Shown here one piece after another: positions 1 through 24,638 of a stretch of 36,803 nucleotides of DNA (positions within the stretch are counted from its first letter, which is position 1; the number at the start of each line of letters is the position of its first letter). A program made the translations under genes and the position numbers. The stretch comes from Tidjanibacter sp. (lineage in GTDB: Bacteria > Bacteroidota > Bacteroidia > Bacteroidales > Rikenellaceae): positions 1-36,803 of the forward strand of contig JAFVSJ010000003.1 in assembly GCA_017503805.1 (NCBI GenBank), in the 5' to 3' direction. The notes under the pieces were generated by a model that was not told the DNA's origin, searched no databases, and worked only from the letters and a program-made list of their open reading frames with translations.

Positions 1-276
1 CACCGGTTACGGCTTTCTCACGAAAGCCAAGCATTTACATTCCCCCTAAATCCCCCGTTAATCCGCTTTCAGCGTCTTTTCCTCCTCCTTGCAGGGCAGA
101 GTCAAAGTAAAAACTTTGACTCTGCTCCTGCTTCGTTCGTCGGTTGGAAAAGGGGGACTTGGTCGAAGAGCAGGCGCTCTTCGATAAATGGTTGCAAAGT
201 GTGGTTGTGGGTGATTAGAACATACCCCTCCGCCCTAAAGGGCACCTCCCCTGACTCAGGGGAGGATGTTTTTTTA
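1..276. repeat. Composite multi-hairpin intergenic repeat, copy 1
   Basis: This is a non-coding stretch and a near-copy of 4459-4656. It reads as a string of short hairpins: GGCTTTC/GAAAGCC at the left, a C5/G5 arm pair split by an 87-nt insert (57-143), GAAGAGC/GCTCTTC near 165-182, GCCCT/AGGGC at 232-243, and CCTCCCCT/AGGGGAGG at 245-265. The last hairpin is followed by seven T (269-275), so it would work as a plus-strand terminator. The copy may extend left of the window. Pairing is kept between copies although the sequence of the 232-243 stem differs. Confidence 0.75.
57..143. repeat. 87-nt insert inside composite repeat copy 1, with a perfect 13-bp hairpin
   Basis: Compared with the second copy, where the C5 arm runs straight into TTTGG, this copy carries 87 extra nucleotides between the C5 and G5 arms. 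The insert contains a perfect 13-bp stem, GCAGAGTCAAAGT at 96-108 with its complement at 113-125, around an AAAA loop. It has no coding potential. It may be a smaller nested element or a lineage-specific expansion of this hairpin. Confidence 0.6.
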
Positions 277-277
277 T

Positions 278-436
278 GGTGCGAAATTTAACCGCTCCAA
301 CTGAAACAAAAAAGCGTGTTTTGCGGAGGAAATTTTGTGCCAACAAGAAAGGGCAAGTCCGCAGCTTACTGAACGTAAATGAGGAACTTGCCCGTCGTAG
401 GTGGTGCAAAATTTACCCGCAAGGCACGTTTTTTTA
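278..436. repeat. Covarying palindromic element, cluster 1 (one unit)
   Basis: This is one unit of a family also seen at 4743-5017 and 23341-23752. The outer arm AAAAAAGCGTG (308-318), followed by TTTTGCGG and AAATTTTG, pairs with the right arm at about 406-435 (CAAAATTTACCCGC, then GGCACGTTTTTTT). The inner stem is GGGCAAGT (351-358) with ACTTGCCC (386-393). The right-end T-run contains the frr stop codon (TAA on the minus strand, 434-436). A fragment of another unit's right arm (about 278-296) precedes it. On the minus strand the unit ends in a hairpin plus T6, so it would terminate frr transcripts. Confidence 0.8.
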
Positions 437-997
437 TACGGTCATAATCTCCTTCTCCTTGGCCGCTACCAACTCGTCGAGCTTCTTGGTGTAACGGTCA
501 ATGAGCTTCTGGGCACTACCCTCGCCATCCTTGGCTACATCCTCGGGCATACCATCTTTCTGCGCCTTCTTGAAGGCCTCAACAGCATCGCGACGCGCAT
601 TGCGCAAGCTCACCTTGCCGGTCTCGGCATAGCTGCGCACCTGCTTCACAAGCTCCTTACGGCGCTCCTCGGTGAGGGCAGGAATGGTCAGACGGATGTG
701 CTCACCGTTGTTGGAGGGGGTGAGGCCGATATTGCTCACGAGAATAGCCTTCTCAATGGGGGCAATCATATTCCTGTCCCAAGGCTGAATAAGGATGGTC
801 TTGGCATCGGGTACGGTGACGCTGGAAACCTGTTCAATGGGGGTGGCAGCGCCGTAGTACTCTACCATAATGCCGCGCAAAACGTGCTGGCTGGCTTTAC
901 CTGCACGCACACCCAGCAGGGCCTCTTCGAGGTGGTGGATAGCCTTGGTCATCTTCTCCTCGGCCATCTCGAGAATCAATAAACTGTCGTCGTTCAT
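434..997 (-). CDS. frr: Ribosome recycling factor
   Basis: This 187-residue protein (family usual about 185) splits post-termination 70S ribosomes together with EF-G in the cytoplasm. The family signature appears in order: the L-x-G-V-R-A-G-K-A segment near residues 27-35, [26 protein letters not shown], and the C-terminal helical stretch [11 protein letters not shown] with KEKEIM at the very end. The ATG at 997 gives the expected N terminus. It is the last gene of a pyrH, thioredoxin, frr series; pyrH-frr adjacency is common in bacteria, though here another gene lies between them. Its stop codon sits in the T-run of a palindromic repeat, which probably acts as its terminator. Confidence 0.97.
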
Positions 998-4458: not shown

Positions 4459-4656
4459 ACCCCTCCGCCCTTCGGGCACCGGTTACGGCTTTCTCGCGAA
4501 AGCCAAATATTTACATTCCCCTTAAATCCCCCTTTGGAAAAGGGGGACTTGGTCGAAGAGCAAACGCTCTTCGATAGGTGGTTGCAAAGTGTGGTTGGGC
4601 TTGATTAGGACATACCCCTCCGTCGCACAGCGACACCTCCCCTAACTCAGGGGAGG
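4459..4656. repeat. Composite multi-hairpin intergenic repeat, copy 2
   Basis: This is a near-copy of 1-265 without the 87-nt insert. The consecutive hairpins are GCCC/GGGC, GGCTTTC/GAAAGCC, CCCCCTTT/AAAGGGGG, GAAGAGC/GCTCTTC, GTCGC/GCGAC (4622-4634) and CCTCCCCT/AGGGGAGG (4636-4656). The GTCGC/GCGAC stem replaces GCCCT/AGGGC of copy 1 but still pairs. Nothing in it looks coding. Confidence 0.75.
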
Positions 4657-4687
4657 ATGATTATCATAAAGCCCTACTCAAAAAAGT

Positions 4688-4736
4688 CCTCCCCTAAGTT
4701 AGGGGAGGTGGCCGAAGGTCGGAAGGGTGTGTCAAA
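4688..4736. repeat. Inverted partial copy of the composite repeat's last module
   Basis: CCTCCCCT/AGGGGAGG (4688-4708) is followed by GTGGCCGAAGGTCGGAAGGG. Read on the minus strand, this is the same module as the right end of 4459-4656 (CCCTTCCG, a small stem, CACCTCCCCT). The two modules therefore face each other about 30 nt apart. Confidence 0.65.
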
Positions 4737-4742
4737 AAATCA

Positions 4743-5017
4743 CCCGCTCCAACTGAAACAAAAAAGCGTGGTTTGCGGAGGAAATTTCGCGATAAACAAA
4801 GTAGCCGGCCCGCAGTTTGCTGACGCAAATGAGAAGCCGGCTTATCGCAGTGCAACGCAGAAATCACCACACCGCTTTGGGGGAAAGCAAAAAAGCGTGA
4901 GTTGCGGAGGAAATTTCGCGATAAACAAAGTAGCCGGCCCGCAGTTTGCTGACGCAAATGAGGAGCCGGCTATCTGATGGGCAGCGCGAAATTTACCCGC
5001 AAGGCACGCTTTTTTTA
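4743..5017. repeat. Covarying palindromic element, cluster 2 (two units)
   Basis: Unit 1 runs from about 4743 to 4870 and unit 2 from about 4883 to 5017. Both have the GC-rich inner stem AGCCGGC/GCCGGCT around TTTGC-TGAC-GCAAA. Unit 2 is complete: its left arm AAAAAAGCGTG... AAATTTCGCG pairs with GCGCGAAATTT... GGCACGCTTTTTT at the right. Unit 1 lacks the matching right arm. The right-end T-run contains the dut stop codon (5015-5017). Together with the composite repeats this fills the 697-nt dxs-dut gap, where dxs and dut converge. Confidence 0.8.
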
Positions 5018-5446
5018 TTTGCCAGTACTACCAAACCCTCCCTCCCCTCGGGAAGTGTCACTCAAAACAGTGGCAGACTCCCACTCTACCTGAGAGTGCT
5101 GAGCCACAACAAGTTGAGCAATGCGCTCACCATCGTTGATGGTGAACTCCTCCGACGAAAGGTTGGCAAGAATAACCTTCACCTCGCCACGATAGTCGGC
5201 ATCTATCGTGCCGGGAGCATTGAGCACCGTAAGTCCATATTTGGCCGCAAGACCACTGCGAGGACGTACCTGCATCTCATAGCCGGCAGGAAGCTCCACA
5301 AAAAGGCCGGTGGGAATGAGCGCACGCGCAAGAGGGCGCAAAACTACAGGCTCGTCGAGGTTGGCTCGCACATCCATACCCGCCGACAGAGGGGTCTCAT
5401 AGCGGGGCAGATCGTGGTGGGATTTGTTTATTACTTTGACTTTCAT
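5015..5446 (-). CDS. dut: Deoxyuridine 5'-triphosphate nucleotidohydrolase (dUTPase)
   Basis: This 143-residue trimeric dUTPase hydrolyses dUTP to dUMP and pyrophosphate. It keeps uracil out of DNA and supplies dUMP for dTMP synthesis. All five family motifs are visible: AGMD (22-25), PRSGLA (62-67), [10 protein letters not shown] (79-88), GERIAQ (106-111) and the C-terminal [10 protein letters not shown] (133-142). Length and start are typical. It lies 44 nt downstream of the flippase gene and is probably the last gene of an rlmN-flippase-dut transcript. Its stop codon overlaps the T-run of the cluster 2 palindromic element. Confidence 0.97.
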
Positions 5447-23340: not shown

Positions 23341-23752
23341 CCTGCATCAACTGAAACAAAAAAGTGGGTTTTGCAGAGGAAATTTTGTGCCAACAAGAAA
23401 GGGCAAGTCCGCAGTTTACTGAACGTAAATGAGGAACTTGCCCGCTGTAGGTGGTGCAAAATTGCCCGCTCCAACTGAAACAAAAAAGCGTGTTTTGCGG
23501 AGGAAATTTCGTGCCAACAAGAAAGGGCAAGTCCGCAGTTTACTGAACGTAAATGAGGAACTTGACCGTCATAGGTGGTGCGAAACTTACCCGCTCCAAC
23601 TGAAACAAAAAAGCGTGATTTGCGGAGGAAATTTCGCGATAAACAAAGTAGCCGGCCCGCAGTTTGCTGACGCAAATGAGGAGCCGGCTATCTGATGTGC
23701 AGCGCGAAATTTACCCGCAAGGCACGCTTTTCACCCGCAAGGCACGCTTTTT
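23341..23752. repeat. Covarying palindromic element, cluster 3 (three tandem units)
   Basis: Three units begin with CTGAAACAAAAAAG at 23351, 23475 and 23600, so the period is 124-125 nt. Units 1 and 2 carry the GGGCAAGT/ACTTG(C/A)CC inner stem; unit 3 carries AGCCGGC/GCCGGCT. The arm pairs are TTTTG/CAAAA (23383, 23457), TTTCG/CGAAA (23507, 23581) and TTTCGCG/CGCGAAA (23632, 23703). The right terminus ACCCGCAAGGCACGCTTTT is present twice in tandem (23713 and 23733). The last T-run overlaps the stop codon of the AraC-type gene. Confidence 0.82.
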
Positions 23753-24638
23753 AGAATGTAGTACTCATCCCCCTCCACGCCTGAGGAGCCATACCCGCAT
23801 ATCGCTTGAAATAACGACAGAAGAATGATGGTGTGGAGAAATTGAGCTTCTCCGAAATCTCGGCACTCGAGAGCTCGGTGCTGAGCAAGAGTCGTTTGGC
23901 ATTGCGAATCACTGCCGAGGCAATCAGATCCGATGGGGTGGTGCCCGTGATGCGTTTCACCTTGGCAGCAAAACGCTTGGGAGTGAGGCCATAGTACTCG
24001 GCGTAGTACTCCACGTCGCGATGCTCTATACTGCTGGAGGTGAGCATCATATTGAACTGCTTGACCATCTGCTCATCGGGAGTTGCTTCGCGCACAGCGA
24101 GGTTGCGGCGCAGGAAGATGTCGATGAGTTCGGAGCGGAGCAGTGCGAGTATATTGTTGTCTATATCGATGCGCGAGGGGCTTCGATGGTTCTGCGATGA
24201 GAGTTCCACATAGTGGTGAAGTGCAGTGAGGGTATTTTCCTCTTGTGGCAGCAGTGTCACCACAGGCATCTGTTGTACTCGAGGGAAGGTCGTGACGATG
24301 CTGTCCACCTGCGAGGAGTGGGAGATAAAGGACATAAATACCGAGGCGCTGAAGTCGCTCGAGAGGAGCGAGAATCGGCAGTGGGAGCCGGCCAAGACCA
24401 CGAGCAATTGATTTGCGCCGATGGTGTGGCTGGTGCCGTTGATGGAGGCCACAACGCTACCCGAGTGGCAGAGCCAGAGGATTACGGTGTCGGAGACCAT
24501 CACACTGCGGTCCATTATGCGGGGCATTAAAGGGGAGTCGGCAGTGACCTCAAAGGCGTAGTTGCTCACTTCGCTGTGGAGGTCGAGTTCTCGGGTAATG
24601 TACTGATAGTCTATCGTCTTGTGATGTTTGTCTTTCAA
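23751..24638 (-). CDS. AraC-family transcriptional regulator
   Basis: This 295-residue protein has an N-terminal cupin-like sensing region (about 15-170, for example VVASINGTSHTIGANQLLVVLAG). A C-terminal double helix-turn-helix of the AraC/XylS type (about 190-290) follows, with YYGLTPKRFAAKVKRITGTTP and the second helix pair ISEKLNFSTPSFFCRYFKRYAGMAPQAWR. The ligand and target are unknown. It stands alone on the minus strand, between the triple repeat and the atp operon. Its stop codon lies in the repeat's T-run, which probably terminates it ahead of the exb promoter. Confidence 0.92.
   Translation of the reverse strand: MKDKHHKTIDYQYITRELDLHSEVSNYAFEVTADSPLMPRIMDRSVMVSDTVILWLCHSGSVVASINGTSHTIGANQLLVVLAGSHCRFSLLSSDFSASVFMSFISHSSQVDSIVTTFPRVQQMPVVTLLPQEENTLTALHHYVELSSQNHRSPSRIDIDNNILALLRSELIDIFLRRNLAVREATPDEQMVKQFNMMLTSSSIEHRDVEYYAEYYGLTPKRFAAKVKRITGTTPSDLIASAVIRNAKRLLLSTELSSAEISEKLNFSTPSFFCRYFKRYAGMAPQAWRGMSTTF

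Follow-up and report, generated by a model that had tools for sequence, protein, structure and literature searches.

ERIC sequences (IRU, RU-1; 127 bp) are among the described repeats closest to the palindromic units reported here, which they resemble in length, in forming an imperfect palindrome and in their chromosomal, intergenic location; we know of no transposase dedicated to them. Integron attC sites are imperfect palindromes that lie directly behind stop codons in a fixed orientation. The units are like them in position only; they stand behind housekeeping genes, where attC sites have cassettes. A likeness in sequence to Correia elements is presumed. ERIC is described with TA at its termini or a TA duplication, and Yersinia ERIC with an orientation-dependent effect on upstream mRNA, for which ribosome-exposed cleavage by RNase E was argued (PMC2229807). 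According to the same source, Correia/NEMIS, RUP, YPAL and other MITEs are, like the units, small, non-coding and gene-adjacent, with end repeats and a stable RNA fold, and they have a target duplication, as do elements with the same centre as the units in other genomes (PMC2229807). REP elements, the partners of RAYT, are also extragenic palindromes often found behind genes but are hairpins of 20–40 bp with a GTAG or CGTC tag, unlike the units (PMC3733652).

The window, by which we mean the whole 36,803-nucleotide stretch analysed, comes from a Tidjanibacter sp. assembly (GCA_017503805.1; genome G000). An earlier note, made from its sequence alone, had proposed six palindromic units in three places with a period of 124–125 nt. 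All six were recovered there by nhmmer, with a size of about 110–128 nt, and the centres of the three tandem units are 124 nt apart (starts 23409, 23533 and 23657). The note had overlooked that the informative strand of the units is the reverse complement. The units are listed below with the genes that precede them on that strand; bit scores refer to R1, a model of the family described further on.

306..433, minus strand: unit 1, centre 359-385 (nhmmer; R1 44.6 bits)
434..997, minus strand: frr (ribosome recycling factor; Pfam PF01765, RRF), the gene preceding unit 1
4758..4867, minus strand: unit 2, centre 4810-4835, TTCTCA variant (nhmmer; R1 47.0 bits)
4887..5013, minus strand: unit 3, centre 4939-4964 (nhmmer; R1 49.9 bits)
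5015..5446, minus strand: dut (dUTPase; Pfam PF00692, dUTPase), the gene preceding unit 3
23356..23469, minus strand: unit 4, centre 23409-23435, outermost in the tandem array (nhmmer; R1 49.1 bits)
23480..23594, minus strand: unit 5, centre 23533-23559, middle of the tandem array (nhmmer; R1 49.3 bits)
23605..23731, minus strand: unit 6, centre 23657-23682, adjoining the AraC-type gene (nhmmer; R1 51.4 bits)
23732..23750, minus strand: extra end-repeat fragment between unit 6 and the stop codon of the AraC-type gene (23751-23753), read from the sequence
23751..24638, minus strand: AraC-type regulator gene (Pfam PF12833, HTH_18) preceding the tandem array

The T-run end of unit 1 directly abuts the frr stop codon at 434-436 (offset 0), and unit 3 abuts that of dut at 5015-5017. 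The tandem array is offset by 19 nt from the stop of the AraC-type gene, and the end-repeat fragment occupies this interval. Three of the window units have AAAAAAGCGTG / CACGCTTTTTT, or a closely similar pair, as their ends. The units starting at 306, 4887 and 23605 each form one long hairpin (RNA z -8.65, -7.77 and -6.14 against shuffles), and the three without the 3' end repeat fold more weakly (RNA z -2.51, -4.86 and -2.57); the DNA folding energies agree with these scores. Linkers such as CTCCAACTGAAAC connect the inner units in the arrays of the window's genome. The model finds 45 units in this genome, whose assembly of 1.25 Mb is 59% complete. Three of its contigs (L011, L012 and L015) end in near-identical units, so the assembly probably breaks at the repeats and the counts are lower bounds. 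A second palindromic repeat, CACCTCCCCTGACTCAGGGGAGGA with its variants, is present at window positions 243-266, 4634-4657 and 4687-4710; repeats of this type adjoin two of the three window arrays and several other arrays of the genome.

On the minus strand, the centre of the window units reads TCCTCA (once TTCTCA), TTTAC or TTTGC, 4–5 nt, GTAAA, GTAAG or GCAAA, and finally CTGCGG. Its general form is a hairpin YTTRC/GYAAR between TCCTCA and CTGCGG, flanked by variable stems, and in other bacteria it usually also has CGTT before it and GCCTTG after it. To obtain the model, 206 units were reduced to 92 by removing near-duplicates, and 30 of the 92, picked by record title so that none was titled Rikenellaceae, Alistipes or Tidjanibacter, were aligned with MAFFT (alignment A1). 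One row of A1, L114, is from a cave MAG titled Borreliella garinii; this title is probably misassigned and is no evidence for that genus. In A1, GTT about 20 nt before the centre and GCCT about 17 nt after it are each conserved at 90% or more, neither having been demanded by the search pattern. R1 matches all six window units (44.6–51.4 bits, E 3e-9 to 4e-11). The flanks have drifted: CGTT is found in one of the six (unit 2, which is without the end repeat) and GCCTTG in none, and across the window's genome they occur in 12/35 and 4/35. The centre is one family across Bacteroidota and Pseudomonadota.

ERIC has letters in the same order as the units (TGCGTT..TCA-CTTAC-n4-GTAAG-CT..CGCCTT), but is without the three letters that stand on either side of the inner loop in the units (TCC.. 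and ..CGG). On ERIC, R1 scored 9.9–11.1 bits (E 0.35–0.71) in a search over 8.8 kb, and E ranged over 0.15–0.71 in all, which is not significant, on the right strand and in the right register; in the 8.8-kb search, the five ERIC sites took the first five places, each on the expected strand. These five distinct E. coli sites (11 regions) include three that lie 44–49 nt behind a same-sense stop (ybhI, cusC and narK), one 208 nt behind ardC and one antisense at pgk-fbaA. We liken the units to ERIC in the way they work and leave membership of ERIC unproven. A 56-nt unit searched in E. coli gave no match. The earlier note did not recognise a named family, and in an Rfam search no family reaches its gathering score on the units, the only matches above threshold being a tRNA of the window and the end of an rRNA in L052. 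No description of the centre turned up in a literature search by sequence strings and keywords, which covered titles, the starts of abstracts and few subscription papers. In L052, positions 137-293 gave a sub-threshold match to the Bacteroides sRNA BTnc231 (29.7 bits, gathering score 80.4) and a weak one to FopS (22.2, gathering score 56), running from upstream sequence into a unit; a small RNA may here use a unit as its end.

Stem swaps on both sides with pairing kept are present as the earlier note described, and a covariation analysis bears this out: both in the window's genome and in other bacteria, the helices covary around fixed loop letters. We fitted 39 units of the window's genome (38 distinct) to R1, a procedure that leans towards structure. 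In this set 95.1% of cells are paired, against 71.9% in shuffles, and 125 cells carry double changes, against 37.2±6.0; the covariation score is 0.674 against 0.243, a value reached by none of 500 shuffles, with slid controls at 0.182 or below. Two measures are weak: the number of further pair types is 25 against 23.0, a value reached by 69 of 500 shuffles, and that of pairs showing a double change is 12 against 9.4, reached by 13 of 500. The 30 units of A1 have 61 double-change cells against 19.2±3.3 when shuffled (slid controls 7–26) and a covariation score of 0.400 against 0.130 (slid controls at most 0.163), with 23 further pair types against 21.8 (180 of 500 shuffles as high). The internal-loop letters that the note had called constant are fixed, except that its TGAGGA reads TGAGAA in the unit at 4758-4867. 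In G009, the orthologous unit behind tmk has diverged to TGCTCA and CTGCGC, a C–G pair being kept by a double change (by eye), and RNAalifold places this pair inside otherwise invariant loops. Of the note's claim of selection on an RNA or single-stranded DNA fold, the covariation stands; these data do not separate RNA from single-stranded DNA, nor selection from arm copying. Arm-to-arm copying within the palindrome could keep the pairing without selection or function, and it is fitted by the swapping of stem blocks between copies.

The exact centre pattern was found in at least 114 stretches of the named genome collection. Among the matches listed, which are a sample, are many ruminant-gut Bacteroidales MAGs (titled Alistipes, Tidjanibacter, Rikenellaceae or Bacteroidaceae), other Bacteroidota including Cryomorpha ignava, one MAG titled Pseudobacteriovorax and, from the Pseudomonadota, Pseudoalteromonas, Marinobacterium rhizophilum DSM 18822, Kangiella, Alteromonadaceae, Gallionellaceae and Zetaproteobacteria. 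The exact pattern is nonetheless rare. It occurs in 11 of 295 drawn genomes of the window's order (G000 included) and in 3 of 369 drawn from the class of G331 (G331 included), and a reversed control pattern had no match in any genome of either draw. With blastn, matches were obtained in 15 of 23 genomes of the window's genus (G000 included) and in none of 37 from other genera; with R1, scoring at most 150 candidates per genome, the same number of genus genomes, 15, have 10–81 units and eight have none. A phage or plasmid origin was considered and rejected, as the viral_contigs set holds no exact match to the pattern and one Alteromonadaceae unit had no plasmid match; a plasmid search with a gut unit returned a single 27-nt match (E 0.3).

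Many unrelated genes of the window's genus and of similar gut MAGs have the hairpin beginning at their stop codon, in sense. Among single units of this gut group, the palindrome starts within 8 nt of an upstream stop codon in sense in 60 of 94 cases, and in the antisense mirror arrangement in 1 of 94. Excluded from this count are units that have a second core within 260 nt, those close to the end of a locus and those with a weak palindrome (9/103 in the gut group and 24/90 elsewhere). A separate count, without cores within 430 nt of a locus end, gave 35/51 in sense against 2/51. Of the 25 arrays in the window's genome, 13 are no more than 1 nt from the stop of a convergent reading frame and four others 15–20 nt from one; the arrays of the window (behind frr, dut and the AraC-type gene) all belong to these 17. 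No significant orientation bias is seen outside the gut group (11/66 against 4/66, P 0.12; 12/49 against 7/49, P 0.36); clean cases there stand behind NDK in a Kangiella, an LptF/LptG permease in a Pseudoalteromonas, a pantoate ligase and an HPPD-like gene. The division of L043-L156 into gut and other was made from record titles. Gene ends are reading-frame ends, and Pfam was run on 12 genes, of which a rimP-like fragment had no match and the NusA and thymidylate-kinase fragments fell just under the curated cut-off; the names rimP, lptG, ftsZ and secA are presumptive or motif-based.

The reading that we prefer, at a probability of roughly 0.45, is that the units are non-autonomous, MITE-derived hairpins with a fixed folded centre, which lie at mRNA 3' ends and work like ERIC. 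They would be transcribed as the 3' end or an intercistronic part of the mRNAs of upstream genes. A hairpin 0–3 nt behind a stop codon would be reached by the terminating ribosome, so that it would affect the upstream message in one orientation only, and this effect may consist in holding or channelling the decay of that message. Roughly half of the units, those with an A-run and a T-run, would also terminate transcription, and the fixed loop letters would be read by a host protein. Elsewhere, the elements would be moved through their outer ends, by transposases of different families; within the Rikenellaceae group, copies would persist at stop codons and swap stems by recombination.

Position and strand might instead reflect an enzyme. 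A mobility system that recognises the folded centre might insert it one way at or just behind stop codons, in the manner of attC sites and group IIC introns and with no benefit to the gene. The closeness of the palindrome edge to the stop, mostly a few nt, and the 60 to 1 division by strand would follow from such a system, as would the gut-group arms, which mostly measure 46–52 nt on each side whatever their letters, and the high turnover of units between species. TGA stops are also under-used at units (4/60) relative to long reading frames at the same loci (72/339; P 0.007). On the other side, there is no candidate enzyme; a Y1 transposase is present in 0 of the 15 unit-bearing genus genomes; the right edge has no consistent duplication (by eye); and the bias is weak outside the gut group. 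We consider directed insertion unlikely.

In other genomes the family is a mobile element. In genomes picked for having the pattern, and with at most 150 candidates scored in each, R1 counts 144 units (G105), 73 (G120), 37 (G337), 25 (G333), 23 (G335) and 15 (G329). Within G120, G337 and G105, all Bacteroidota and the second a Flavobacteriales MAG, the copies have common terminal inverted repeats around an element of about 125 nt, and these ends are unrelated between genomes (GGGGACTTCTAAAAATG in G120, GAGACYGTTGATGCG in G337 and GGCATTTTTCATAAATG in G105). Target duplications are 5 bp in 8 of 10 cases in G337 and 8 bp in 5 of 9 in G105, with none in mismatched pairs. In G120 they are less clean (4 bp in 5/16 and 5 bp in 4/16, controls 0.054 and 0.013), but 14 of 17 have a duplication of at least 4 bp when the edges are left free (mismatched pairs, 0.30). 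Since the transposase determines how long the duplication is, centre-bearing elements are moved by at least two systems: one module has apparently been taken up by different transposition systems. A search for an autonomous partner in G337 yielded 85 matches to the terminal repeat (at most 1 mismatch) and no facing pair 0.3–5 kb apart. In the window's genus the arms and linkers vary and no constant or evident target duplication is seen at the unit edges (by eye), so that the MITE nature of its units rests on the shared centre. Because this centre is common to high-copy elements with end repeats and duplications, the family counts as MITE-like and is more than an RNA family.

Units also turn over. 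Among 187 records with a stop codon 25–85 nt upstream, 20 clusters share the upstream gene. Behind the same gene, other arms that still pair are found for NusA (L405, L431 and L121), a SEC-C protein (L415 and L430) and frr (L006 and L228); behind tmk (L391 and L395), the outer arms are alike and the inner stem has been exchanged as a block. In a tmk panel of 22 genomes, two have an intact unit and one a diverged unit, and this coming and going speaks against a gene-specific role. Together with the block-wise movement of stems, it means that arm-to-arm copying has to be reckoned with as a cause of the pairing. Insertion into the loop of a pre-existing terminator was rejected for tmk, the only gene inspected for it: none of the 19 unit-less genomes of the panel shows a hairpin with the same arms (by eye).

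High copy number, end repeats with duplications, stems exchanged in blocks and patchy presence could all be accounted for by a selfish MITE and nothing more, which inserts at random, is lost where harmful, has its arms paired by palindrome correction and has no host function. However, a symmetric palindrome gives no reason for a strand bias of 60 to 1, the loop letters are fixed between changing stems, and the exact pattern is absent from the viral contigs; we hold this explanation to be rather unlikely.

It is improbable that the units are nothing but long intrinsic terminators whose efficient termination has made them spread. Among 123 gut-group units with the stop 25–85 nt upstream, a T-run (TTTT) is present at the far end of 67 and an A-run together with a T-run in 58, and ordinary terminator-like hairpins stand at frr in species that have no unit at this gene (by eye). 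About half of the units, though, are without the run, and a separate terminator-like hairpin follows those in L402, L408, L411, L420 and L422 (by eye). In L121, units lie between the tandem rimP-like and nusA genes as well as behind nusA. Moreover, a terminator works on either strand, and the units do not. A REP nature, with mobilisation by a RAYT (Y1) transposase, is hardly credible, and is refuted for the window's genus by the absence of Y1_Tnp from all 15 unit-bearing genomes: the units are palindromic, extragenic and repeated, and 17 of 20 centre-carrying genomes outside the genus have Y1_Tnp, but so do 5 of 14 controls, the sole genus genome with Y1_Tnp has no units, and elements of about 125 nt with end repeats differ from tagged hairpins of 20–40 bp (PMC3733652).

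MITE-derived hairpins acting like ERIC at mRNA 3' ends remain our preferred reading, and a wider one can be put forward only tentatively, as doubtful: that two or three transposition systems carry a folded module common to Bacteroidota and Pseudomonadota, and that this module is now fixed at stop codons in one gut lineage, counts ERIC as a distant member and is read as RNA or single-stranded DNA by common host machinery. Were this so, there would be one answer to what ERIC-like repeats do. Small palindromic repeats have so far been listed one genus at a time, in most cases with no enzyme assigned to them and with scant knowledge of their function. A centre that crosses phyla in independent, covarying copies provides a model for annotation and a defined sequence for protein pull-downs, and its stop-codon-locked form makes it possible to test directly if such repeats influence the message of the preceding gene.
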